DNA of 64,000 nt, from assembly GCF_001562255.1 (NCBI RefSeq), contig NZ_CP014301.1, positions 1,054,001 to 1,118,000 of the forward strand. The letters run 5' to 3'. The position numbers were made by a program, and so were the translations under genes. Origin of the DNA: Bosea sp. PAMC 26642. GTDB taxonomy: Bacteria; Pseudomonadota; Alphaproteobacteria; Rhizobiales; Beijerinckiaceae. The notes beneath the pieces are model-generated. The model was not told the DNA's origin. It was given only the letters and a program-made list of their open reading frames with translations, and did not search any database. Positions 32,194-44,400 of this stretch are shown piece after piece. Each line of letters begins with the position of its first letter. The first letter of the stretch is position 1.

Positions 32194-33024
32194 TCAGATC
32201 GTGTAGTCGGGCGGGTTGGTGTCCTCGCGGATCAGGTCCTTGAGGATGCGCTCTTCGAGCAAAGCGAGATCGACCGAGCCGCGCCGGCGCGGGCGGGGAA
32301 GGTTGACGGTGATGTCGAGCGTGATCCGGCCATCGTCGATCATCACGACGCGGTCGGCGAGCGTCAGCGCCTCCGAAACGTCATGGGTCACGAGGATCGC
32401 GGTGAAGCCTTGCGTCTGCCAGACGCGCTCCAGCAGGCTCTGCATCTCGATGCGGGTCAGCGCGTCGAGGGCGCCCAGGGGCTCGTCGAGCGCCAGCACA
32501 CGCGGCCGGCTGACCAGCGCGCGGGCTAGCGCCACGCGCTGGCGCTGGCCGCCAGACAACACGGCCGGCCATTGCTCCGCCTTGGCTTCGAGCCCCACGG
32601 CCCGCAGCGTCTGAAAGGCGCGCTCCTCGGCCTCAGGCAGCTTGCGGTCGGCCCCGAGACCGACCTCGACATTGGAGAGCACGCGCGCCCAGGGCAGCAG
32701 GCGCGGCTCTTGGAACATGATGCGCGGCGTCTCCGTCGCGCTAGAGCCCTGGCCGAAACGTAGCGTGCCGTCGCTGGCCGCGTCGAGGCCGGCAAGAATA
32801 CGCAGCAGGGTGCTCTTGCCGCAGCCGCTGCGCCCAACGATGGCGAGGAACTGGCCGGCGGGGATGTCGAGATCGATGCCGCGCAGGACCTCGAGATCGC
32901 CGAAGCGCTTTGTCAGGCCGCGAATGGCGATCTCCTGGCCGAGCGCGGCTCTGGATCTTGCCGCCTTGTCCTCGAACAGGGCGTCGAAGGAAAGCGCGCT
33001 CGGCGCCAGCGTCGCTGTCGTCAT
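32194..33024 (-). CDS. ssuB: Sulfonate ABC transporter ATPase SsuB
   Basis: 276 residues. Walker [14 protein letters not shown]-loop [13 protein letters not shown] (the LLPW form typical of SsuB/TauB/NrtD), signature [15 protein letters not shown], Walker [13 protein letters not shown] and switch His in LVTHD. The N-terminus carries about 25 extra residues. It energises the SsuC permease encoded 10 nt upstream. Confidence 0.9.
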
Positions 33025-33034
33025 GGCGAGATCC

Positions 33035-33889
33035 TCAGGCTTTCTGGAAGGCCGGATGCCAGGACAGGCAAAGCCGTTCGAACAGCCGCACGGTCGAGTC
33101 GGCGATCTTGCCCAGCGCGGCGTAGATCACGATCGCCAGCACGACGACGTCGACCAGCATGAACTCGCGGGCGTTCATCGCCATGTAGCCGATGCCGGAA
33201 TTGGCCGCGATCGTCTCGGCCACGATCAGGGTCAGCCACATGATGCCGAGCGCATAACGCACGCCGACGAAGATCGAGGGCAGGGCGCCGGGCAGGATGA
33301 CGCGGCGGAACAACTCCCAGTTGCTCATCCCGTAGGAGCGGCCCATCTCGACGAGCTGGCTGTCGACGGTGCGCACGCCATGGAAGGTGTTGATGTAGAT
33401 CGGGAAGAACACGCCGAGCGAGGTCAGGAACAGCTTGGCCTCCTCCTCGATCCCGAACCAGAGGATCACCAGCGGGATCAGCGCAAGATTGGGGATGTTG
33501 CGGATCATCTGGACGGTGGTGTCGGTGAGCCGCTCGGAGGTCTTGGACAGGCCGTTGAACAGGCCCAGTGCGAAGGCGAGCGAGCCGCCGAGCAGAAAGC
33601 CGGAGATCGCGCGCTTGAAGCTGACGGCGATGTTCTCGCCCAACTGTCCGTTCAGCGTCAGCCGCCATCCGGCGGCGAGCACGTCGCTCGGCGCGGGCAG
33701 CACATTGGCCGCGATCCAGCCGAGCTTCGAGCCGGCCTGCCAGACCAGCAGCAGGCCCAGGGGCAAAAGCCAGGGCATCAGCTGCGACAGCACCGGCTGG
33801 AACGACCTGGTACGGGGAGAAAGCCGCCTCCCGCTCGATGGCGAGGCAACGACCGGTGCGCTGAGTCCGGGTTGAGCGAAATCAGTCAT
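33035..33889 (-). CDS. ssuC: Sulfonate ABC transporter permease SsuC
   Basis: 284 residues from the ATG with GAGGGCGGA upstream; longer readings run into ssuD. Six membrane segments and the SsuC/TauC/NrtB-type signature [26 protein letters not shown] (EAA loop). Inner-membrane channel for alkanesulfonates, 7 nt after ssuD. Confidence 0.9.
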
Positions 33890-33896
33890 TCCGCCC

Positions 33897-35048
33897 TCAC
33901 GACGCCGCGACGGCGACGCGCACGCCTGTGCCGCTGATGCCGAATTCGCCGATCTGCGTGCGATGCGTTGTCTGCGTCTGCGCGCCGATTCCAAGCACGG
34001 GGAAAAGCAGTTCCGCAACCTTGTAGGCCTCTTCCAGATGCGGATAACCCGAGGCGATGATCGTCTCGATCCCGAGCGCCTGGTATTCCCGCAGGCGCGC
34101 TGCGACCGTCTCGGGACTGCCGACCAGAGAGGTGCCGGCGCCGCCGCGCACCAGGCCGATGCCGGCCCAAAGGTTGGGCGCGATCTCGAGCTGATCGCGG
34201 CGGCCGAGATGCAGCGCGCTCATGCGCTTCTGGCCGATGGAATCCGACTCCTCTGCAAATTTTTTCTGTGCCGCGATGATTGCCTCGGCTGGCAGCTTGC
34301 TGATCAGCTTGTCGGCCGCGGCCCAGGCCTCGGCATCGGTCTCCCGCACGATTAGATGAATGCGCAGGCCGAAGCGGACTTTGCGTCCACGAGCGGCGGC
34401 TCTCGCCCGGACGGCATCGAGCTTGGCCTTGGCCTGCGGGATCGGCTCGCCCCAAGTCAGATAGGTGTCGACATGCTCGGCGGCGACATCGAGCGCGGGG
34501 TCCGACGAACCGCCGAACCAGATCGGCGGCGGGCTCTGGACCGGCGGGAAGTCGAGCTTGGCGCCCTGGACATCGATGTATTTTCCGGTGAAGTCGACCC
34601 TCTCCCCGGCAAGCAGGCGGGAATAGACGCTAAGGAATTCAGCCGTATGGGCATAGCGCTCGTCATGGGGCAGGCGGATGCCGTCGCCGGCGAGTTCGGA
34701 AGGATTGCCGCCGGTGACGATGTTGACGATGAAGCGGCCATTGCTGACCCGGTCGAGGGCGGCGGCCTGTCTCGCGACGAAGGTCGGGGATGCGACGCCG
34801 GGCCTGGCGGCCACGAGATATCTCAACCGCTCGGTGAGCGGGGCCAGCGCGGCCGCCGTGATCCAGGGATCGTCGCAGCTTTTGCCTGTCGGGATCAGCA
34901 CGCCGCCATAGCCCAGGCGATCGGCGGCCTGCGCAATCTCCTTGAGATAGCGAAAATCGGCGGGGCGATGGCCCTCGGTCGTGCCGAGATAGGAGCCGTC
35001 GCCGCTGACGGGAATGAACCAGAAGATGTCGAGAGGCTTGTCGGTCAT
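33897..35048 (-). CDS. ssuD: FMNH2-dependent alkanesulfonate monooxygenase SsuD
   Basis: 383 residues, normal for SsuD. It starts [18 protein letters not shown], with the luciferase-like TIM-barrel motifs [31 protein letters not shown] and [19 protein letters not shown]. With FMNH2 and O2 it splits C1-Cx alkanesulfonates to aldehyde and sulfite, which the sulfite reductase encoded at 37648 then reduces. Cytoplasmic. Second in the order ssuA-ssuD-ssuC-ssuB-flavin reductase. Confidence 0.93.
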
Positions 35049-35090: not shown

Positions 35091-36050
35091 TCAGGCCGTC
35101 GGCTTCCACTCCCAGACGATATCGCGAACATTGATGGCCTTCGGGATGAGGCCGAGGCGATGGAAGCGGTCGGCGACCCGCTGCTGCTCGTCGAGCACGC
35201 GCGGATTGAGCGGCGCGATCAGGAAATCGGCCCGGTCTACAGCACGCTTCCAGGGCTCGATCGGCAGGCCCGTCGCGGCGGCCTGGACGCTTGCCACCTC
35301 GCCCCGGTTGGCCTCCGCCCAGCGCGCCACCTTGGCGAGTTCGTCATTGATCGCTGCGACGAGCTCGGGGTGCTTGCCCGTGAAGTCGCGGTTGGCGAGG
35401 TAGAACGCGTTCTGCGCCACGATGCCCTTGGCGAGCGCCAGGATCCGGACGCCCGGAATCTGCTCGGCGATGGCAAAGAACGGATCCCAGATCGTCCAGG
35501 CATCGACCGAGCCGCGCTCGAAAGCGGCACGCGCATCGGCCGGGGGGAGATAGACCGGCGTGAACTCGTCATAGCCGAGCCCGGCCTTCTCGATCGCGGC
35601 GATCGTCAGATTGTGCGAGCTCGATGCTTTGGCGAAAGCGATCTTCTTGCCCTTGAGGTCGGCCAGCGTCTGGATCGGCGATTTCGGCGGCAGCAGGATC
35701 GCCGCGCCCGATCCAGCGGCCTCCTGCGTCGCGACATAGAGCAGGTTGGCCTTGGCTGCCTGGGCGAAGATCGGCGGCGCGTCGCCGGTCGGCCCATAGT
35801 CGATCGAGCCGGTGTTCAGCGCTTCAAGCAGCGGCGGCCCGAACTGGAACTCGACCCATTTGATGGCGATGCCTTGCGCAGCGAAGCGTTTCTCGAGGAC
35901 GCCCTGCTGCTTGGCAATCAGCAGGATGCCGTTCTTCTGGAAGCCGATGCGTAGCTCCTTCGGCGCCGCGGGCGACTGGGCGGTGGCTGCCCCTGAAGCG
36001 AAGGCGAGCGATGTTCCGGCGAGGCCGGCGATGAAGTCTCTGCGGTCCAT
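35091..36050 (-). CDS. ssuA: Aliphatic-sulfonate-binding protein SsuA
   Basis: 319 residues. Twin-arginine-like N-terminus MDRRDFIAGLAGTSLAFASG and cleavage after TAQ. The NMT1/SsuA-type domain: RIGFQKNGILLIAKQQGVLEKRF, KWVEFQFGPPLLEALNTGSIDYGPTGDAPPIFAQA and LKGKKIAFAKASSSHN. It captures sulfonates in the periplasm for SsuBC. It lies behind a small frameshifted gene and a long leader with a Cys-terminated upstream ORF. Confidence 0.92.
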   Translation of the reverse strand: MDRRDFIAGLAGTSLAFASGAATAQSPAAPKELRIGFQKNGILLIAKQQGVLEKRFAAQGIAIKWVEFQFGPPLLEALNTGSIDYGPTGDAPPIFAQAAKANLLYVATQEAAGSGAAILLPPKSPIQTLADLKGKKIAFAKASSSHNLTIAAIEKAGLGYDEFTPVYLPPADARAAFERGSVDAWTIWDPFFAIAEQIPGVRILALAKGIVAQNAFYLANRDFTGKHPELVAAINDELAKVARWAEANRGEVASVQAAATGLPIEPWKRAVDRADFLIAPLNPRVLDEQQRVADRFHRLGLIPKAINVRDIVWEWKPTA

Positions 36051-36089
36051 GATGCAAGTCTTTCCTGATTTCGATGTCGGGGGGCGTGC

Positions 36090-36283
36090 TCAGGCGGCCT
36101 TCGGAAGACCCTGTCCGGCGCGGCGCGTGGCGGCTGCGCGCTGGCCTGCTCCACCGAGCGAAAGGTCTTGCCGTCGAGAGCGTCGAAGGCTGGCTGGGAA
36201 GAAAAGAAGCGGAAGTTCCCGTTCTGGCCGACGACGATGCCGGCGGCGTCACCCTGAACTTCGATCACGATGGCTTTGGACAT
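36090..36283 (-). pseudogene. Small conserved protein at the head of the ssu operon, frameshifted
   Basis: Starts MSKAIVIEVQGDAAGIVV with GAAGG 8 nt upstream and continues NGNFRFFSSQPAFDALDG and FRSVEQA. Near 36140 one base appears to be missing: adding it gives ERAAATRRAGQGLPKAA and a TGA at 36092-36090, a natural-looking 64-residue protein. The unrepaired frame runs on past this point into the SsuA coding region. The family (small, about 60-70 residues, with a FRFFxSxPxFxxLDG core) is one I recall next to sulfur and other genes in related genera, function unknown. It is the first gene after the leader. Confidence 0.6.
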
Positions 36284-36378: not shown

Positions 36379-36453
36379 TCAACATCGCGTCGAGCGCAGG
36401 AAATCTGAGAGACGAAGAAGGTGTCCGACGACAACGTCGACAAGAATGATCAC
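36379..36453 (-). CDS. 24-residue leader ORF ending Arg-Cys-stop, ssu operon
   Basis: GTG with GGAG 8 nt upstream (GGAGACACACC-GTG). The peptide begins VIILVDVVVG and ends DFLRSTRC, the last codons being CGA TGT TGA. A second ORF of exactly the same length, with the same start context and the same terminal CGA-TGT-TGA, lies at the same distance before cysH. Stop to first gene is 95 nt here and 91 nt there. The Cys codon before the stop suggests a cysteine-charging sensor. The peptide itself is not expected to have another role. Confidence 0.6.
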   Translation of the reverse strand: MIILVDVVVGHLLRLSDFLRSTRC

Positions 36454-36475
36454 GGTGTGTCTCCATAAAAGGAGC

Positions 36476-36620
36476 CCACGATCTTATCGTGGTGCTTTTA
36501 GCTTTGGTGACGCGGCGCAAGCTGCTCCAGCAAATCCCGCGATGGATCGAATAATTGCTTCGACCAATACATGTACTGTTCTTGATTTGACGCGGTGGGT
36601 CAATGAAAACGGATTTCAAA
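36476..36620 (-). promoter_or_regulatory. Upstream control region of the ssu operon (shared with cysHDN)
   Basis: Contains a perfect CCACGAT-CTT-ATCGTGG hairpin (36477-36493), the block GCGGCGCA..CTGCT and CAAATCCCGCGAT, and GAAA-N5-TTTC (36605-36617) 7 nt from a minus-strand TTGACC (36603-36598). All recur in the same order upstream of cysH. The dyad is a candidate activator site (CysB/Cbl-like LysR) and TTGACC a candidate -35; both roles are inferred. Confidence 0.5.
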
Positions 36621-36918
36621 GATCGGGCGGGAAGAAGGATAATACCCTCCTGGTCCGGTTGCCTTTGGCGCTTTTGTCTCGCCTCCGCTTGGCGTCGGTT
36701 ATCCCGTTTCGCAATGGCGCTCAAACGGCATCCCTTTTCGCCAGACAGCTCAGCGCGCGGCCTCGGCAGGGTACCAACGCGACGCGACTGCGCAGAAAAT
36801 CGGCCATACGCGGGGGGCGGCAAAATGGACCGGCTTGGCAGGAGTAGTTGCGGCTAACTGAGGCAATGTCGCCAGCGGTTCGCTGCGGCGTGCCGACATG
36901 TCCTCGGGATGTCTTGGA
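36621..36918. other. Intergenic stretch
   Basis: After the shared control block no gene or strong signal is recognisable up to the end of the sulfite-reductase operon. Confidence 0.4.
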
Positions 36919-37149
36919 TCATCGCGGACTTGACTGACCGGTGGGCGGCTGCGGCCGGGCGGCGGGGTCTGGTAACGCCGACCATCCCAACAGCAGGATT
37001 GCGACCAGCAAGCCGAAGCCGAGATCGATCCAGCGCTCATGGCGACTCCGGGGCAGGAAGTCGGCGATCTCGCGGGAGGCCGTATCCTCGGTCCAGCGGG
37101 CAGCACGGTCCATCAGTTGCGCCTCCAGATCATCCCCGGTCGCACTCAT
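36919..37149 (-). CDS. Small single-span membrane protein
   Basis: 76 residues from the ATG overlapping the DUF934 stop (ATGA). Acidic/basic N-terminal half (DDLEAQLMDRAARWTED), then one hydrophobic span (WIDLGFGLLVAILLLGWSAL) and a Pro-rich tail. No family recognised. Its strict overlap with the sulfite-reductase operon argues it is real and co-expressed; perhaps a membrane anchor. Confidence 0.6.
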   Translation of the reverse strand: MSATGDDLEAQLMDRAARWTEDTASREIADFLPRSRHERWIDLGFGLLVAILLLGWSALPDPAARPQPPTGQSSPR

Positions 37150-37658
37150 GCCACGGGGGTGTCCGCCCGGGCCTGACGGCGGTTGTCGAGGATATTGCCT
37201 TCGCGGCGATAGCCGCGCTGATAGTTGCTTTTGAGATGTCGGCTGGCCAGTTGCCATTGCTCGACGCTCTGTCGGGCGGCGCTGCTGTCTGGCAGTTCAA
37301 TCTCGTCGAATCCGCAGGCCAGCGCATAGGCGAACTGGTCGGGGATCAGCGGGCCGGACGCCCGCAACGTGCCGTCATAACCGGCACGGCGGATCGCTTT
37401 CGCCAGGCTGAAGCCGCGGCCATCCGCGAAGGCCGGGAAAGCGATGCCGATGAGCGACAGCCTCGGCAGGAAGGGCTCCAGCGCCGCCACGGGGAGCGCA
37501 TTGGGAATCAGAACTCCGATCTGCTGAGCCTGGGCCAGTTGAGCCAAGGCGTCCGGCAGCGCGTCGAAACCGACAAGCGCTTGCGACAGGTTGCCGATCG
37601 CGGCACCTTCCGTGCGTGTCCAGCCTTCCGTGATGGCACCCTTGCGATCAAGCAGCAT
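37146..37658 (-). CDS. DUF934 family protein (sulfite-reductase accessory)
   Basis: 170 residues. DUF934 features: GVLIPNALPVAALEPFLPRLSLIGIAFPAFADGRGFSLAK and ELPDSSAARQSVEQWQL. Genes of this family almost always follow cysI-type sulfite reductases in proteobacteria, as here with an 11-nt overlap, but the biochemical role is not established. Cytoplasmic. Confidence 0.85.
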   Translation of the reverse strand: MLLDRKGAITEGWTRTEGAAIGNLSQALVGFDALPDALAQLAQAQQIGVLIPNALPVAALEPFLPRLSLIGIAFPAFADGRGFSLAKAIRRAGYDGTLRASGPLIPDQFAYALACGFDEIELPDSSAARQSVEQWQLASRHLKSNYQRGYRREGNILDNRRQARADTPVA

Positions 37659-39315
37659 CGGCCAGTTCCCTGAAGGCGGCTTTGAACGGCACCAATCCGA
37701 CGCGCTTTACCGTCTCGATGAAACGCTCTCCGTCATGACGCTGGCTCTCATAGACGCCGACGATCGCCTCTATCGCGTCGGGCACGTCCTCGGCCGGAAG
37801 GCCCGGCCCGAGAATTTCCCCAATTGCGGCATTCTCGGTGGCGTCGCCGCCGAGCGTGATCTGGTAGGATTCGATGCCGCGCTTCTCCAGACCGAGAATG
37901 CCGATATGGCCGACATGGTGATGGCCGCAGGCGTTGATGCAGCCGGAAATCTTGATGTTGAGTTCGCCGATCGACGCCTGACGATCCGCATCGGCGAAGC
38001 GCTGCGCGATGGCCTGGGCGATCGGGATCGAGCGGGCTGTGGCGAGCGAGCAGTAGTCGAGGCCAGGGCAGGCGATGATGTCGGTGATCAATCCGAGATT
38101 GGCGGTGGCGAGCCCCACTGGGACAAGCGCCTGCCAGATCGCAAAGAGATCGTCCTTGCGGACATGCGGCAGGACGAGGTTCTGCGCATGGGTGACGCGC
38201 AATTCGTCGAAGGAGTAGCGCTCGGCGAGATCGGCGACCAGCCGCATTTGCTCGGAGGTCGCATCGCCCGGCGCCAGTCCGACCGGCTTCAGCGAGATCG
38301 TCACCGCAGTGTAGCCCGGCACGCGATGCGGGGTGAGGTTGGTATCGACCCAGCGGGCGAAATCCGGGTTGCCCGCCTTGGCCACGGCAAGCGCCCCGCT
38401 GTCGGGCGGCAACGTCTCATAGGCGGGCGGCGTGAAATAGGCCGCGATACGGGCCAGCTCTTCGGCGTCGGCATTCACCGAAGGCCCGTCGAGAGCCGAG
38501 AACTCCGCTTCGACCCGGCGGCGGAATTCCTCCGTCCCGATCTCGTGGACTAGGATCTTGACCCGCGCTTTATATTTGTTGTCGCGCCGTCCCTCGAGAT
38601 TGTAGACCCGCATCACCGCCTCGAGATAGGCGAGCAGGTCAGCCTTGGGCAGGAAGTCGCGCACGACCTTGCCGATCATCGGCGTGCGGCCAAGCCCGCC
38701 GCCGACGCTGATCTCGTAGCCGATCTCGCCGCTCTCGGGATGCCTCACGATCCTCAGGCCGATGTCGTGCGCCTTGATCACCGCGCGGTCATGCTGCGCG
38801 CCGGTGGCGGCGATCTTAAACTTGCGCGGGAGATAGCTGAACTCGGGATGGGCGGTCGACCACTGCCTGATCAGCTCGCAGACCGGGCGCGGATCCTCGA
38901 TCTCGTCCTGCGCGACGCCGGCGAAGTGATCGGCCGTGACGTTGCGGATGCAGTTTCCCGAGGTCTGGATGCAGTGCATCTCGACATCGGCGAGCAGGTC
39001 CAGGATGGCCGGCACGTCGCGCAGCTTCGGCCAGTTGAACTGCAGGTTCTGGCGGGTGGTGAAATGGCCGTAGCTGCGGTCGTAGCGCTCGCCGATCAGC
39101 GCGAGTTGGCGCAATTGCCGCGACGAGAGCGTGCCATAGGGAATGGCGATACGCAGCATGTAGGCGTGGAGCTGCAAATAAACGCCGTTCTTCAGCCGCA
39201 GCGGCTTGAACTCATCCTCGGTCAGGGAGCCGTCCAGGCGTCTGGCGACCTGATCGCCAAACTGCGCGACCCGGTCGCGCACGAAACGCTCGTCGAATTC
39301 ATCGTAGCGGTACAT
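37648..39315 (-). CDS. cysI: Sulfite reductase hemoprotein (siroheme/4Fe-4S)
   Basis: 555 residues. Two nitrite/sulfite-reductase repeats; siroheme-4Fe4S ligands Cys416, Cys422 (ACPGLDYC) and Cys459, Cys463 (SGCINAC). TTRQNLQFNWPK and NCIRNVTADH are the substrate and heme-pocket signatures. It reduces sulfite to sulfide with six electrons. No flavoprotein CysJ gene is nearby; a 2Fe-2S ferredoxin leads the operon and is the likely electron donor. No siroheme synthase cysG gene is present in this unit. Confidence 0.92.
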   Translation of the reverse strand: MYRYDEFDERFVRDRVAQFGDQVARRLDGSLTEDEFKPLRLKNGVYLQLHAYMLRIAIPYGTLSSRQLRQLALIGERYDRSYGHFTTRQNLQFNWPKLRDVPAILDLLADVEMHCIQTSGNCIRNVTADHFAGVAQDEIEDPRPVCELIRQWSTAHPEFSYLPRKFKIAATGAQHDRAVIKAHDIGLRIVRHPESGEIGYEISVGGGLGRTPMIGKVVRDFLPKADLLAYLEAVMRVYNLEGRRDNKYKARVKILVHEIGTEEFRRRVEAEFSALDGPSVNADAEELARIAAYFTPPAYETLPPDSGALAVAKAGNPDFARWVDTNLTPHRVPGYTAVTISLKPVGLAPGDATSEQMRLVADLAERYSFDELRVTHAQNLVLPHVRKDDLFAIWQALVPVGLATANLGLITDIIACPGLDYCSLATARSIPIAQAIAQRFADADRQASIGELNIKISGCINACGHHHVGHIGILGLEKRGIESYQITLGGDATENAAIGEILGPGLPAEDVPDAIEAIVGVYESQRHDGERFIETVKRVGLVPFKAAFRELADAA

Positions 39316-39317
39316 CG

Positions 39318-39668
39318 TCAGGCGCTCCGGCGGCCGGCGATGCCTTCACCGGCCTGCTTGCCCAAATCCGGGCGAGTGCTGGGTCCGAGCGTCTTGAAAC
39401 GCTCCCGGAAGTGGCGCGGCACGGGCCCGTTCGGGCCAATCTCCACATCGACGAGATAGGCATCGACGACCTGCTGTCGTGCGGCTGCAGCGAACGCTTC
39501 CAGCCTGCCGGCGGCGACGCCCTCGTCAGCGACCAGCGCGAGACGGGGATCTCGCGTCCAGTCCAAGGCTCCGTCTGCGTCCTCCACGGCAAAGACGACG
39601 TCCCCGTCGAGCAGGTCGTTGGCGAGCAGGATGGCAGGCAGAGGTGGGCGCTTCGGGGTGCTGGTCAT
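39318..39668 (-). CDS. DUF2849 domain protein
   Basis: 116 residues from the ATG that overlaps the ferredoxin stop by one base (TGATG). Sequence LPAILLANDLLDGDVVFAVEDADGALDWTRD matches the small DUF2849 family, which regularly precedes cysI in alphaproteobacteria. The function is unknown; the gene lies 2 nt from cysI. Confidence 0.8.
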   Translation of the reverse strand: MTSTPKRPPLPAILLANDLLDGDVVFAVEDADGALDWTRDPRLALVADEGVAAGRLEAFAAAARQQVVDAYLVDVEIGPNGPVPRHFRERFKTLGPSTRPDLGKQAGEGIAGRRSA

Positions 39669-39991
39669 CAGGCCGCTTCCGGCAAGTGCAGCCGCAGCCC
39701 GTCCAGGGCGTCCGCCCAGATGATCTGGCAAGAGAGGCGCGATGTCGGCTCGATCAGGGGCAGCGTGTCGAGCGCGTCGATCTCGTCGGCGCGGGGTTCG
39801 GGGAGCCGGTGAGCCCAGTCGGGCGCGACGACGACATGGCAGGTCGCGCAGTCGCAGGAACCGCCGCATAGTCCGTCGATGCCGACCTTGCAGTCGCGCA
39901 GGATTTCCATGACCCGCCAGCCTTCGACGGTGTCGAGCTCATGGGACCGGCCATGTCTGTCGGTGACGTGCAGCGTAGCCAAAACCGTCAT
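39668..39991 (-). CDS. 2Fe-2S ferredoxin, adrenodoxin/ISC-like
   Basis: 107 residues. Cluster ligands Cys42, Cys48, Cys51 and Cys88 (CGGSCDCATC then LSCQI), with two extra Cys at 34 and 46. First gene of the sulfite-reductase operon, so probably the electron carrier to CysI. Its ribosome site GGAG, 1 nt before the ATG, is the 3' arm of a perfect 8-bp hairpin, implying control of initiation. Confidence 0.87.
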   Translation of the reverse strand: MTVLATLHVTDRHGRSHELDTVEGWRVMEILRDCKVGIDGLCGGSCDCATCHVVVAPDWAHRLPEPRADEIDALDTLPLIEPTSRLSCQIIWADALDGLRLHLPEAA

Positions 39992-39992
39992 G

Positions 39993-40016
39993 CTCCGTTC
40001 TGTATTCCGAACGGAG
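39993..40016 (-). promoter_or_regulatory. Shine-Dalgarno-sequestering hairpin of the sulfite-reductase operon
   Basis: Minus-strand RNA CUCCGUUC - 8-nt loop - GAACGGAG, immediately followed by C-AUG of the ferredoxin. All bases of the GGAG are in the stem, so opening the hairpin should be required for translation. No known riboswitch fold was recognised around it. Confidence 0.55.
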
Positions 40017-40275
40017 TTTAAACGAAGGACGGCGGCCGATCAATTCACGCAAGCGAGATGGTTTTACTATATTGTACATTCGCTTTAGTGAAATTGACCC
40101 CGCTGAGGCGCTGGGCGCGGCCACGGCCGCGGAAATCGTGGCGCCCTCGTCAGGATCGGCCGGTCCGACGAGCGCGCAATCGCCTTGAGGCAAAGGCTGC
40201 GAGAGGGATCAGCACCACATCCGATAGGCCGTTGGCTTGATCACGCGCCTGGCCGAACCCGGCAGGGCGCTCGGC

Positions 40276-40524
40276 TCAAAGAGCCGGCCTGTAGAACTGG
40301 TCGAAGGTGCTGCCATCGCCGAAATGGATCGGCCTTGCCTTGGCCCAGCCGCCGAAGATGGTGACGAGGTCGATCTTGGAGACGTTAAGCTCCTGGGTCG
40401 GATCACGGGAGACGTTCAGCGACTCAGTCTGCGCACGCGCCCCGGCCACGACCCCAAAGCGCAAAGAGAAGGCTCCCAGAACAAGGCCGGCCTGGATCAG
40501 GCGACGAAGTGCGGGGCGGGGCAT
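40276..40524 (-). pseudogene. Internally deleted sulfate-binding protein gene
   Basis: An 82-residue open frame: signal peptide (RRLIQAGLVLGAFSLRFGVV..ARAQ), then SLNVSRDPTQEL, the start of mature sulfate-binding proteins (usually LLNVSYDPTREL), joined directly to DLVTIFGGWAKARPIHFGDG and STFDQFY, their extreme C-terminus. About 250 central residues, all the sulfate-binding lobes, are gone, yet the frame is kept. It sits between cysN and the sulfite-reductase operon, where a sulfate permease would fit. Confidence 0.72.
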
Positions 40525-40741
40525 CGTGCTCTCCGTTGCTGGGACCAGCCCGACCGACGGGTCAAAAAGTTCTTTTTACGGAACGTAAGGGTATGCTGAG
40601 GCAAGGCAGCAGACAAGAGACCGAGGCAGCACTGTTATTCAAATTTGGCCGGTTCGGGAGAACAGACCGCTGCTTCCAGACCCGGTTTCAGAAGAGCGGT
40701 CTTTCCTCTCCGAGCCGACGTAATTCCGACCCGACAGACCA

Positions 40742-42397
40742 TCAGATCCCGTCGCCCAGGACATTCTCCGAAGCGAGTTGGTTCCGGCTCCGGCGGCGAT
40801 GCCAAAGGCCGCGCGCCAAGGCCCATGCCCCGCCCACGAAAAGCGGTCGCAACGCCAGATCGGCCACCGCGACAAGCAGTGCCGACGACAGGCTGCCGGT
40901 CAGGCCATGGACGAGCGCCCCCAGCACGAGAGAGGCGAGCATATTGCCGCCGACCGCGCCGGAAAGCTCGCTGCGCGTCAGGGACCCGGCGGGCCCGATA
41001 CGGTTGCGCAGGGAGGCAAGCAGGGTGGCGACGGAGCCTGGGAGGCGGGAGTTGGTCCCGGCTGACGGCGTCGCCGCCTCATCGACGAAGCCGAACGCGA
41101 CCGTCTCATTGCTGATCGTGTCGATCAGGATGAATCCACCCAGTTCCGTGCTGACCGAGAACGGCAGGACGCCGATCGCCCTGTCGAGGTCGAGCGTGAC
41201 CGTCCCGATATCGTTCATAGCCAGCGTCGTCGCAGGCACCGGCGTCACCGTCGCGACGTCGATGCTGTGGTGCAGTGCCTTGACCACGGCATGAGCATGG
41301 CTGCTGCCGAGCTTCAGTGCGTAGCGGTTGCCCAAAGCGAGCGGCGCCTCGCCTGTCCAGAGCAGGCGCGCGTTCAGGCTGCGTCGGACCGGGGGACGCC
41401 GTGCCGCATCGACGATCAGGTCCCCGCGCGAAACGTCGATCTCGTCGGCCAGGGTTACGGTCAGGGCTTGGCCGGCGGAGGCGTGCCCCACTTCTCCGGC
41501 GGGGGCCAGAATGCGCGCGATGCGGCTCGTGCGGCCTGAGGGCAGGATGGCGACGGCATCGCCCTGCTTTAGTTGCCCCAGCGCGAGATTGCCCGAATAG
41601 CCCCGAAAGCCGGAATCGGGTCGGTTGACCCATTGCACCGGCAACACCGCGCCCTCATGGACCCGGCCCGAAGCCTCGACCGAGACGTTTTCCAGATGGG
41701 CCAGCAAGGGCTCGCCGCGATACCACGCCATCGCCGCCGACGGACTCGTGACATTGTCGCCGTTGCGCGCCGAGACCGGGATGAAGCTGATCTGTGTGAA
41801 GCCAAGTTGAGCGGCGGCGGCGCGATAGTCGGCGCTGATGAGCTCGAAGACGGCCCGATCGTAGCCGACCAGGTCCATTTTGTTGACCGCCACGACGACA
41901 TGGCGAACGCCGACGAGCGACACGATGAACGAATGCCGCAGCGTCTGCCTGAGCAGGCCGAGCCGCGCATCGACCAGGATGACGGCGAGGTCGGCGGTCG
42001 AGGCGCCGGTCGCCATGTTGCGGGTATACTGCTCATGGCCGGGCGTGTCGGCGACGATGAAGGCGCGTCTCGGCGTCGAGAAATAGCGATAGGCGACATC
42101 GATGGTGATGCCCTGCTCGCGCTCGGCCGAGAGCCCGTCGACGACCAGCGCGTAGTCGACTTCGTCGCCTTGCGTGCCGAACTTGCGGGAATCTCGCTGG
42201 AGAGTGCCGAGCTGGTCGTCGAAGACCGCCCCGGTCTCGAACAGGATGCGGCCGATTAGCGTCGACTTGCCGTCATCGACGGAGCCGCAAGTGAAGAAGC
42301 GCAGCAGGGAGCGCGGCTCGATCCCGTCGTCATTGGCCGGGCCGTCGTCCGGCCGCGCCGCTTCGTTGGCGCGCTGCCGGGCCTTGAGGGCACTCAT
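40742..42397 (-). CDS. cysN: Sulfate adenylyltransferase GTPase subunit CysN with a C-terminal membrane-like tail
   Basis: 551 residues. EF-Tu-like GTPase: P-loop SVDDGKSTLIGRIL, DTPGHEQYTRNMATG, NKMDLV, then two beta-barrel domains. With CysD it makes APS from sulfate and ATP, driven by GTP. There is no fused APS kinase (CysC). Instead residues about 443-551 form a tail with hydrophobic segments (GNMLASLVLGALVHGLTG, ALLVAVADLALRPLFVGGAW) reminiscent of DUF2061. It overlaps cysD by one base (TGATG). Confidence 0.9.
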   Translation of the reverse strand: MSALKARQRANEAARPDDGPANDDGIEPRSLLRFFTCGSVDDGKSTLIGRILFETGAVFDDQLGTLQRDSRKFGTQGDEVDYALVVDGLSAEREQGITIDVAYRYFSTPRRAFIVADTPGHEQYTRNMATGASTADLAVILVDARLGLLRQTLRHSFIVSLVGVRHVVVAVNKMDLVGYDRAVFELISADYRAAAAQLGFTQISFIPVSARNGDNVTSPSAAMAWYRGEPLLAHLENVSVEASGRVHEGAVLPVQWVNRPDSGFRGYSGNLALGQLKQGDAVAILPSGRTSRIARILAPAGEVGHASAGQALTVTLADEIDVSRGDLIVDAARRPPVRRSLNARLLWTGEAPLALGNRYALKLGSSHAHAVVKALHHSIDVATVTPVPATTLAMNDIGTVTLDLDRAIGVLPFSVSTELGGFILIDTISNETVAFGFVDEAATPSAGTNSRLPGSVATLLASLRNRIGPAGSLTRSELSGAVGGNMLASLVLGALVHGLTGSLSSALLVAVADLALRPLFVGGAWALARGLWHRRRSRNQLASENVLGDGI

Positions 42398-43299
42398 CAG
42401 AAATAGCCTTCCTGCTTCTTCTGCTCCATCGAGCCGGTTCCATCATGGTCGATGATCCGGCCCTGTCGCTCGGAACTCTGCGACGCCCGCATCTCGGCGA
42501 TGATGTCGGTCAGATTGGTTGCATCGCTTTCGATCGCGCCGGTCAGCGGGTAGCAGCCCAGCGTCCGGAAGCGGACCATGCGGGTTTCGACGACCTCGCC
42601 CGGCAGCAATGGCAGGCGCTCGTCGTCGCGCATGATCCAGGCATCGCCGCGGCGAAGCACGGGACGGGGGGCGGCGAAGTACAATGGCACGACGGGGATG
42701 CCTTCGAGCGCGATGTAGTCCCAGACGTCGCGTTCGGTCCAGTTCGAGAGCGGAAAGACGCGGAAACTCTCGCCCGCCCTCTTGGCGGTGTTGAACAACG
42801 ACCAGGGCTCCGGCCGCTGGTTCTTTGGATCCCATCGGTGGTCGGCGCTCCGGAGCGAGAAGACGCGTTCCTTCGCGCGCGTCTTCTCCTCGTCGCGGCG
42901 GGCCCCGCCGAAGGCGGCGTCGAACCGGTATTTGTCGAGCGCCTGCTTCAGCCCTTGCGTCTTCATCACATCGGTATGGATGCGCGAGCCTGACGAGACC
43001 GGGTCGATGCCGGCCTTTACGCCATCCTGATTGATATGAACGATCAGCTCCAACCCGAGCCGGCGCACGGTTTCGTCGCGGAACGCGATCATCTCGCGGA
43101 ATTTCCAGGTCGTATCGACATGCAGCAGCGGGAAGGGCGGCTTGCCGGGGGAGAAGGCCTTCATCGCCAGATGCAGCAGCACGGCGGAATCCTTGCCGAT
43201 CGAATAGAGCAGCACCGGATTGTCGCAGGTCGCCACGACCTCGCGCAGGATGAAGATTGCCTCGGCTTCGAGGTTCTGGAGATGGCCGGGCGCGATCAC
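42397..43299 (-). CDS. cysD: Sulfate adenylyltransferase subunit CysD
   Basis: 300 residues from GTG overlapping the cysH stop (GTGA); readings further upstream are shadows of cysH. PP-loop ATP pyrophosphatase: [40 protein letters not shown] and the [11 protein letters not shown] signature. Catalytic partner of CysN in the adenylation of sulfate. Confidence 0.92.
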
Positions 43300-44066
43300 A
43301 GCGCGACCTCCGCCGTGCGCGTGCGGACGAGCCGGCCGTCGTCGCCGACATGCAGGCCGCATTCCTTCGCCGCATCCTGCTCCCACCACCAGCGACCGGC
43401 ACGCTCGGACTCGCCTGGAACGATAGCGCGTGTGCAGGGCGCGCATCCAATCGAGACGAAGCCGCGCGCGTGCAGCGGGTTGACGGGCACGCCGAGGTCT
43501 TGGGCAACCAGACGGGCCTGCTCGCGGCTCCAGTCGTGCAGCGGGTTGATCTTCGTCAGGCCACGCTGGAGATCATGTTCGATGAAACCGGTCGCCGCTC
43601 TCGCCTCTGACTGGCCCGCGCGCAAGCCCGTGATCCAGCCGGCAGCTCCTGCCAGCGCCCGGTCCAGGGGGGCAAGCTTGCGCAGGAAACAGCAGCGCTT
43701 GCGCGCTTCCTGCGAGGCCTTGAAGCCGTTGATACCCTGTTCCCGGACCATGCGCTCGACCGAGCTCGCATCCGGCAAGAAGGCCGAAACGCTGAGGCCG
43801 TAGCGCCGTTCCGTCTCCGACCAGAGATCATAAACCTCCGGAAACAGGCGCCCGGTATCAAGCGTCGCGAAGGAAACCTCTCGCGCCAGCCCTGCCTCCG
43901 CGATGAGGTGCGTCAGAACCTGATCTTCGAGCCCGAAACTGGTCGTGAAGATGAGACGACCCGGGACGTCCGCACGCGCACGCCGCAAGCGCCCGATGAC
44001 CCGGTTCGGGGCTGACGGGTCTGATGCGGTTTGGGCTGTTTCGTCGGTTGCGGCCACTTTGGCCAT
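43296..44066 (-). CDS. cysH: APS reductase CysH (4Fe-4S type)
   Basis: 256 residues. PAPS/APS reductase fold with [13 protein letters not shown] and [17 protein letters not shown]. Cys125-Cys126 and Cys208/Cys211 (GCAPC) are the 4Fe-4S ligands that distinguish APS reductases, and Cys236 in KECGLH is catalytic. It reduces APS to sulfite and AMP. This fits the absence of APS kinase in CysN: the pathway is sulfate-APS-sulfite-sulfide. First gene after the second Cys-terminated leader. Confidence 0.92.
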
Positions 44067-44077
44067 ACGGCTTCATT

Positions 44078-44094
44078 CGCCGAGAATGTCGGCG
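44078..44094 (-). promoter_or_regulatory. Stem before the cysH start region (leader element)
   Basis: CGCCGA-N5-TCGGCG, identical arms to 36295-36311, located 12 nt before the cysH ATG and followed by GAATGAAG. Preceded by a further small hairpin CCTGC-N6-GCAGG. Confidence 0.55.
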
Positions 44095-44157
44095 CCTTTG
44101 GTATCTGAGATGATGGATCAAGGGTGGCCTGCTACACCGCAGGGTGGCGCGACATCA

Positions 44158-44232
44158 TCAACATCGCGAGGGATGCAGACCCTTCGAAGAATGAGGGAGA
44201 CGTGTTGCAACCAGGTCGATGAAGGCGATCAC
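44158..44232 (-). CDS. 24-residue leader ORF ending Arg-Cys-stop, cysHDN operon
   Basis: GTG with GGGGA 7 nt upstream. The peptide begins VIAFIDLVATRL and ends GLHPSRC, codons CGA TGT TGA. Same length as its counterpart before the ssu operon and a matching hydrophobic N-terminus with Asp at position 6, but very different middle codons. This points to selection on the start, length and end rather than simple recent duplication. Confidence 0.6.
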   Translation of the reverse strand: MIAFIDLVATRLPHSSKGLHPSRC

Positions 44233-44249: not shown

Positions 44250-44400
44250 GGAGCCCACGATGTCATCGTGATGCTTTCGGCAGTAGTAGCGCGGCGCAGA
44301 ACTGCTTCGACAAATCCCGCGATCGATCCATCACCGTGAAATCGACCCCTCAAATGTCGTCGATCGCGAGGGTCGGGTCAACGAAAGCGGTTTTCAAAGA
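44250..44400 (-). promoter_or_regulatory. Upstream control region of cysHDN (shared with ssu)
   Basis: CACGAT-N3-ATCGTG hairpin (44256-44270), the blocks GCGGCGCAG and CAAATCCCGCGAT, minus-strand TTGACC (44381-44376) and GAAA-N5-TTTC (44383-44395). The dyad lies 151 nt from the leader GTG, against 152 nt in the ssu copy. About 140 nt beyond, up to the ABC gene, nothing is recognisable. Confidence 0.5.

Follow-up and report, generated by a model that had tools for sequence, protein, structure and literature searches.

Leader ORFs upstream of the ssu and cysH operons

We analysed a 64,000-nucleotide (nt) stretch of Bosea sp. PAMC 26642 (contig NZ_CP014301.1, positions 1,054,001 to 1,118,000; hereafter the window), in which the sulfonate (ssu) operon and the sulfate assimilation operon cysHDN are each preceded by a short leader open reading frame (ORF). 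A preliminary description of this DNA had presented the two leader ORFs as cysteine-sensing elements of equal standing, and both are present at the coordinates and with the features it gave, namely the same length, a GTG start, Asp6, a CGA-TGT-TGA end and a ribosome site (GGAG or GGGG, terminating 7 nt 5' of the start). They lie on the minus strand, which had gone unstated, and the plus-strand reading of the same coordinates contains no such ORFs in the same frame. The distances from leader stop to next gene, 95 nt (ssu) and 91 nt (cysH), were also given correctly, except that behind the ssu leader a small unannotated ORF (from 36283 downwards) comes first, ahead of ssuA (36050). Neither leader peptide had a match in NCBIfam. 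When the two leaders were aligned, their likeness extended well beyond the ORFs, taking in a promoter-like segment and ~100 nt 5' of the start codon. The preliminary description had overlooked a conserved upstream RNA of the SAM-II riboswitch type (SAM, S-adenosylmethionine), which is the strongest signal of the region (Table 1).

A SAM-II-type RNA with an inserted hairpin

Directly 5' of the leader ORF lies an RNA of ~75 nt with the SAM-II core (UUUG, CUUGC and GCUAAA), the P1 helix and the pseudoknot, and with an extra hairpin between CGCUAAA and the last pseudoknot strand; this plan is common to 20 loci that were written out, one of them the window's own. With the ssu leader as query, searches of 61 same-genus genomes returned repeated matches 5' of the ORF, often several per genome, while among the matches listed the ORF region itself was matched in few of these genomes. 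The Rfam SAM-II model (RF00521) aligned with the ssu leader over its full length at loose settings (16.4 bits; cut-off 36), retaining GAUUUG, GCUUGC, CGCUAAA and P1, and at an E-value of 1 it was listed for 4 of 11 relatives at 21.7–22.9 bits (best E-value 0.0016, in a short search).

To locate the RNA independently of the peptide, we used two covariance models, R1 (built from 21 sequences, two from the window) and R2 (26 sequences), the ssu copy belonging to the training sets of both. The RNA was found by R1 in 53 of 61 Bosea genomes at an E-value of 0.01 and, across the order, in 82 of 297 genomes with a limit of 0.05, the weakest of these being possibly chance matches, and by R2 in 72 of 385 genomes of the class and 40 of 249 of the order; the counts of 53 and 72 include the source genome itself. 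In a sample of the phylum, R2 matched 13 of 329 genomes, all 13 inside the class.

Covariation supports the proposed helices, although none of the statistics given here accounts for shared ancestry. Among 74 matches (72 distinct rows), 98.7% of cells were paired and 7 of 11 pairs had two-sided changes (38 cells), a result that none of 500 shuffles equalled. Fitting the alignment to the structure favours this outcome, but sliding the partners abolishes the signal. All P1 cells (100%) were paired; of the 72 rows, two carry UA in place of CG and two CG in place of GC. The pseudoknot, which is part of neither model, was assessed at 155 of 174 loci (101 unique pairs): its complementarity was 1179 versus 965 +/- 27 after shuffling, 0 of 1000 shuffles reached it, and its strands covary (GGAGC:GCUCC, GGGC:GCCC, GACA:UGUC, AGGAUC:GAUCCU). 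A first, narrow set of 26 rows was too uniform for its pair counts to be informative: just one pair changed on both sides, and 182 of 500 shuffles did as well. Of 92 rows from other genomes in the R2 search of the class, 69 loci were used and 23, mostly the weakest, were omitted; from the Bosea copies at about 53–72 bits, roughly one per genome, only 7 were used.

All three core motifs occur in 95 of 99 matches from the genus and order and in 73 of 74 other matches, R1 and R2 having been trained on part of the matches counted; the ssu copy keeps all three and the cysH copy does not. The base contacts known from the related SAM-V structure are a U20:A48.U9 triple and U47 (PMC6061858). By our own reading they fall within these motifs; their transfer to SAM-II is assumed, not computed.

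Direct genes and short leaders behind the RNA

The RNA stands either directly before a long ORF (24 loci) or before a short ORF led by a Shine-Dalgarno (SD) sequence. Scans of seven of these 24 identified MetX, two MetZ, a MetY-type protein, CysG, a sulfate-binding protein and a MetF-like protein just under the cut-off, a set that fits SAM as the ligand. Hairpin-bearing SAM-II-type RNAs were seen directly before long ORFs at six loci (L217, L226, L230, L282, L284, L285), none of which had a match to Rfam 15 at its own cut-offs; on scanning, the direct ORFs of L217, L226, L230 and L282 were met and cys genes. The median distance from core to start was 44 nt for Bosea leaders (n = 39), 47 nt for other leaders (n = 51) and 54 nt for direct genes (n = 24), and the leader therefore occupies the place of the controlled gene.

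Behind short leaders, whether Cys-bearing or not, we found SsuA, flavin reductase, MetN-type ATPases with a NIL domain, an NlpA/MetQ-type lipoprotein, CysE, NMT1-type and other binding proteins, aminotransferase class V, a GAF protein and an OsmC-like protein, each assigned at one to few loci and several by eye. The genome's third copy lies outside the window, at C1:4098069; its leader is MTIRPVRRNEHLAMDCCRR, and an ABC ATPase that is MetN-like by eye follows. Leaders ending in HRRL or HRRP form a further group (L149–L154 and L106), in which Cys precedes in 3 of 7 (CHRRL in L151, L153 and L154); by Pfam, L106 is followed by an OsmC-like gene, and the genes behind L149–L154 look alike.

Late Cys codons in the leader peptides

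Leader ORFs were picked by SD and start codon alone, blind to Cys, at 168 of the 174 loci (6 had no parsable core), giving 126 short ORFs, 24 long ORFs and 18 loci with no SD-led start in reach. By eye, some of these 18 have a Cys-rich short ORF (such as L172–L175 and L220), and the start rule mispicks a few Bosea leaders (such as L078 and L081), so that the Bosea Cys count is low rather than high. The same-genus loci L172–L175 are also missing the inserted hairpin; their leaders are Cys-rich (FCCRR-stop, ACCCRMPILR-stop), with an ABC ATPase behind by eye.

In the class-wide set (69 loci from the class search and 6 from the order search), 37 loci had a short ORF, and 26 of their 36 unique peptides carried Cys in the last 8 codons, spanning 14 family labels (counted by hand). 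Cys made up 63 of 278 residues (22.7%) in the last 8 codons, 12 of 518 (2.3%) elsewhere and 52 of 1566 (3.3%) out of frame, and 79 of 6302 residues in long ORFs. A similar picture came from the 89 loci of the genus and order set: of 86 unique peptides, 64 had late Cys, and Cys made up 106 of 671 residues in the last 8 codons versus 26 of 1327 elsewhere. Binomial probabilities against the out-of-frame rates were 9e-10 (class-wide) and 1e-18 (genus and order), uncorrected for relatedness. The codon itself is also biased: UGU accounts for 123 of 169 leader Cys codons (73%) versus 18 of 82 (22%) in direct long ORFs behind the same RNA (Fisher p = 2e-14). Its share is 60 of 220 in out-of-frame readings, and seven sulfur genes of the window use it for 2 of their 20 Cys codons. 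Under the same rule, the 30 best-scoring canonical SAM-II loci yielded no Cys leader (16 long ORFs, 12 loci without a start and two five-residue ORFs lacking Cys). This comparison of codons shows selection for Cys codons as such towards the end of the reading frame, and the leader ORFs are presumably translated.

The ssu leader and its relatives

At six other same-genus loci we found leaders of the ssu type, which like the window's own have 24 codons and end in Arg-Cys-stop, and in which synonymous change exceeds replacement change (pS 0.46 versus pN 0.17; 6 ssu-type leaders), as the preliminary description had proposed to check. In the wider LRLSAFL type (29 leaders), pS was 0.51 and pN 0.24 in frame, whereas replacement change exceeded synonymous change in both other frames. 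With ORFs of the same type at six loci and synonymous change exceeding replacement change in frame, the ssu ORF is beyond chance. SsuA is visible by eye downstream at 5 of the 7 ssu-type loci, and L093 has a flavin-reductase-like ORF. Other features that had been described as kept were found less widely: Asp6 is present in one of the six other ssu-type leaders (L085), and the terminal Cys is not universal in the peptide type, since several leaders end in WTRTG-stop or WTRS-stop. Conserved LRLSAFL-type leaders without a terminal Cys (WTRTG-stop, WTRS-stop, or WTRSC followed by more residues) occur at L102, L137–L148, L155–L162, L170 and L171; behind these leaders lie a GAF protein and, by eye, a LacI-like regulator and peptide-type binding proteins. 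The LRLSAFL-type peptide may act by itself. The ssu leader is conserved both as a peptide and as an RNA.

The divergent cysH copy

The cysH leader is a different case. Its aptamer copy, which is in the R1 training set and outside that of R2, has GCCGAAA for GCUAAAA, UUCUGC for CUUGC and the loop GAAGC, and retains the inserted hairpin and GGGCUCC. Its predicted fold is no better than shuffles (z = 0.03) and P1 is not formed; for the ssu copy, most of P1 is formed (z = -1.65, 18 of 200 shuffles as good). Upstream of 27 other same-genus cysH loci, at any operon position, there was no Cys-terminated ORF of under 45 amino acids within 500 nt, and the named loci L039–L042 (three of which duplicate some of the 27) likewise had none 5' of cysH. 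Conservation before related cysH genes, which had been put forward as a check, is thus not seen in other Bosea, and the two ORFs do not carry equal weight, the cysH one having a divergent aptamer and no counterpart found. Cysteine sensing, as proposed earlier for both, is backed by comparative data for the ssu leader and a large family of leaders, while for the cysH copy it rests on one genome. The cysH copy is most plausibly a diverged relation of the ssu leader in which the Cys ORF is kept. Of the two leaders in the window, the ssu one looks intact, and the cysH one has probably lost SAM sensing while keeping its Cys ORF.

Genes and other features of the region

SsuC exceeds its NCBIfam cut-off, and the best match of the adjacent ATPase is the sulfonate model, below cut-off (334 of 395 bits). 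The small protein with the pattern IEV...AGLxV...FRFF is often the first gene behind the leader, as in the window (35918–36283, minus strand) and at L219, L264, L275, L278 and L286; two of these proteins were compared with Pfam, without a match. Upstream of both aptamers, a TGAAA-N5-TTTCR dyad abuts a -35-like TTGACC. At 30 of 70 loci from the genus, and at 1 of the 104 other loci, it lies a fixed 67–68 nt 5' of the aptamer; metN-type copies have TTTCTTTAAAAGAACG at its position. The dyad is probably a regulator site at the promoter. The sul1 RNA (RF03058), a sulfur-associated RNA that occurs in alphaproteobacteria, was considered as an identity for the leader RNA and is a different element: it matches neither leader, and its one site above the cut-off in this genome is C1:2180834-2180889 (66.6 bits).

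Table 1 Features of the ssu and cysH leaders and operons in the window.
Feature	Position	Strand	Remarks
ssu leader ORF	36379..36453	-	24 codons; reads VIILVDVVVGHLLRLSDFLRSTRC; ends Arg-Cys-stop
ssu leader SD, GGAG	36461..36464	-	also complementary to pseudoknot strand GCUCC; sequence
SAM-II-type aptamer with inserted hairpin (ssu)	36471..36542	-	R1 113.8 bits; R2 90.5 bits
P1 of ssu aptamer	36541-36537 with 36515-36511	-	
Pseudoknot of ssu aptamer	36528-36524 with 36475-36471	-	GGAGC with GCUCC
Core GCUAAA of ssu aptamer	36502-36497	-	
Inserted hairpin of ssu aptamer	36492-36476	-	
Dyad and abutting TTGACC (ssu)	36598..36618 (dyad 36604-36618)	-	TGAAA-N5-TTTCA; -35-like TTGACC; sequence
Small unannotated ORF	35918..36283	-	IEV..AGIVV..FRFF type; first after ssu leader
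ssuA, aliphatic sulfonate-binding protein	35091..36050	-	NCBIfam
ssuD, alkanesulfonate monooxygenase	33897..35048	-	NCBIfam
ssuC permease and ssuB-like ATPase	32194..34018	-	NCBIfam
cysH leader ORF	44158..44232	-	24 codons; reads VIAFIDLVATRLPHSSKGLHPSRC; ends Arg-Cys-stop
Divergent aptamer copy (cysH)	44250..44322	-	R1 88.4 bits; R2 60.6 bits
Dyad and abutting TTGACC (cysH)	44376..44396 (dyad 44382-44396)	-	TGAAA-N5-TTTCG; sequence
cysH, phosphoadenylyl/adenylyl-sulfate reductase	43296..44066	-	NCBIfam
cysD and cysN, sulfate adenylyltransferase	40742..43446	-	NCBIfam

A proposed two-sensor leader

The co-occurrence of the RNA with Cys leaders, its covariation and the codon choice are apparent from comparison between genomes. 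We propose, with a probability of roughly 0.62, a composite leader with two sensors in series, in which the SAM-II-type aptamer would control translation of a Cys-sensing leader peptide. The pseudoknot aptamer with its inserted hairpin stands directly before an SD, and the ORF under its control would be a leader peptide and not an enzyme. The RNA would bind SAM, and binding would reduce translation of the leader, by analogy to the translational SAM-II and SAM-V switches (PMC6061858; for Sinorhizobium meliloti metA, PMC9373788). Because the Cys codons, mostly UGU, lie in the last few codons, translation would slow there when Cys-tRNA(Cys) is scarce. A translated and stalled leader would permit expression of the operon, probably because it impedes termination by Rho within the leader, and the operon would be on only while SAM and cysteine are both low.

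Several observations weigh against this model. The gathering cut-off of the Rfam SAM-II model was not reached at any locus scanned, with 0 matches in the window, the relatives and 12 further sources. Late Cys (last 8 codons) is missing in 10 of 36 class-wide and 22 of 86 other peptides, and some Bosea leaders share the peptide type yet lack Cys. The link from the stalled leader to the operon is the weakest of the model: the coding strand of the window has no intrinsic terminator in the interval that separates a leader ORF from its gene, and when folding was predicted with a stalled ribosome (18 of 20 leaders; 2 were dropped because the gene-start pattern was not found), accessibility of the gene start was unchanged (mean change 0.004, 11 of 18 up). 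This lack of a consistent effect speaks against a simple translational switch driven by the footprint of the ribosome; for the cysH leader, which was treated separately, accessibility rose from 0.28 to 0.52. The one hint of Rho is a modest excess of C over G behind the leader (0.14 versus 0.04 inside genes; above zero for 77 of 89 Cys leaders, versus 58 of 89 further inside the genes), and it is not tied to Cys, since leaders without late Cys show it equally (0.15; 27 of 32 above zero). Pyrimidine runs behind leaders are barely above shuffles.

The first step might also run in the opposite direction, since GCUCC could pair either with the aptamer loop or with the SD. If SAM paired GCUCC with the loop, the SD would be freed and the leader switched on, so that Cys would be sensed only at plentiful SAM. 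In most Bosea leaders written out, GCUCC is indeed complementary to both partners, the GGAGC loop and the GGAG of the SD; outside Bosea, however, the strand is often GCCC or similar with, by eye, no match to the SD, and the same RNA before metX or metZ would then raise methionine synthesis at high SAM. We regard this reversal as unlikely. It seems a little less likely again that the leader is a Cys attenuator only and the upstream RNA a structural relic no longer sensing SAM. The strong Cys codon signal would fit such a relic, as would the cysH copy, which lost core nucleotides yet keeps its Arg-Cys-stop ORF, but core motifs kept in nearly all genus and order matches and covarying pairs are unexpected for one.

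The leader ORFs could instead act as nascent or mature peptides behind a SAM-II-type riboswitch, through arrest or through thiol or metal chemistry, and not as Cys-tRNA sensors. An LSAF core conserved across Cys-bearing and Cys-less Bosea leaders, with the pS and pN of the wider type given above, points this way; most leaders, however, share by eye nothing except late Cys codons, and a preference for UGU over UGC fits a decoding sensor and not a peptide function, which makes this the least probable of the alternatives weighed here. On a broader scale, we put at about even odds that the composite leader is a widespread alphaproteobacterial two-signal gate, in which one ancestral RNA moved repeatedly between direct control of met genes and control of a leader peptide.

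Significance and comparison with known systems

If the two-sensor model is correct, a riboswitch and a ribosome-stalling leader would act in series in many alphaproteobacterial families, reading two linked metabolites, and genes for sulfur uptake and assimilation would be switched on only under a shortage of both end products, SAM and cysteine. This would account for control of sulfonate, sulfate and methionine uptake in alphaproteobacteria, would add a SAM-II subgroup that lies under the Rfam 15 threshold at every locus scanned here, and would offer many natural leaders with different peptides for testing the logic of serial sensing by RNA and ribosome. In the open literature searched, we found neither a SAM-II-type switch in front of a Cys leader peptide nor any riboswitch controlling an amino-acid-sensing leader peptide ORF described; most subscription papers and supplements lay outside the search, and an earlier description is possible.

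Going by the title of a 2020 study by Canestrari et al., mycobacterial Cys leaders are said to be leaderless, and we know of no Cys sensing by the upstream ORFs (uORFs) of the Mycobacterium tuberculosis B12 riboswitches. Those riboswitches, with translation of a uORF, resemble the present system in combining riboswitch and uORF in one leader, and differ in ligand and phylum (PMC11260477). Actinobacterial polycysteine leader ORFs, with Cys runs by the stop before sulfur operons, likewise have late Cys codons without a clear terminator, and Rho has been suggested for them; they belong to another phylum, and the accessible part of the report mentions no aptamer (PMC1262725). Closer in lineage is the uORFC-8-2 motif before cysS in Rhodobacterales, with two Cys codons, an intrinsic terminator and proposed attenuation (PMC8632094, accessible part). 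The preliminary description knew of no alphaproteobacterial form with the architecture seen here; this motif shows that leaders with Cys codons had been described there, while the architecture does differ, as the motif is confined to cysS of Rhodobacterales with its Cys codons in a stem with the terminator, and no riboswitch is mentioned in that part of the source. The window's operons are ssu and cysH and have no intrinsic terminator behind the leader ORF, which places them outside uORFC-8-2.

Among riboswitches, SAM-II with long loops (RF01726) is by name a SAM-II variant with added loop sequence, as here, but is listed for Bacteroidetes and marine samples (PMC2864571) and gave no Rfam match in the window. 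SAM-II itself (SAM_alpha, RF00521), known since 2005 (Corbino et al., PMC1273637), shares P1 and the pseudoknot, the core GAUUUG/GCUUGC/GCUAAA, occurrence in alphaproteobacteria and, for the direct type, the methionine genes behind it. The window RNA differs in its extra hairpin, in scoring below the Rfam cut-off, and in often preceding a Cys leader instead of metA or metZ.

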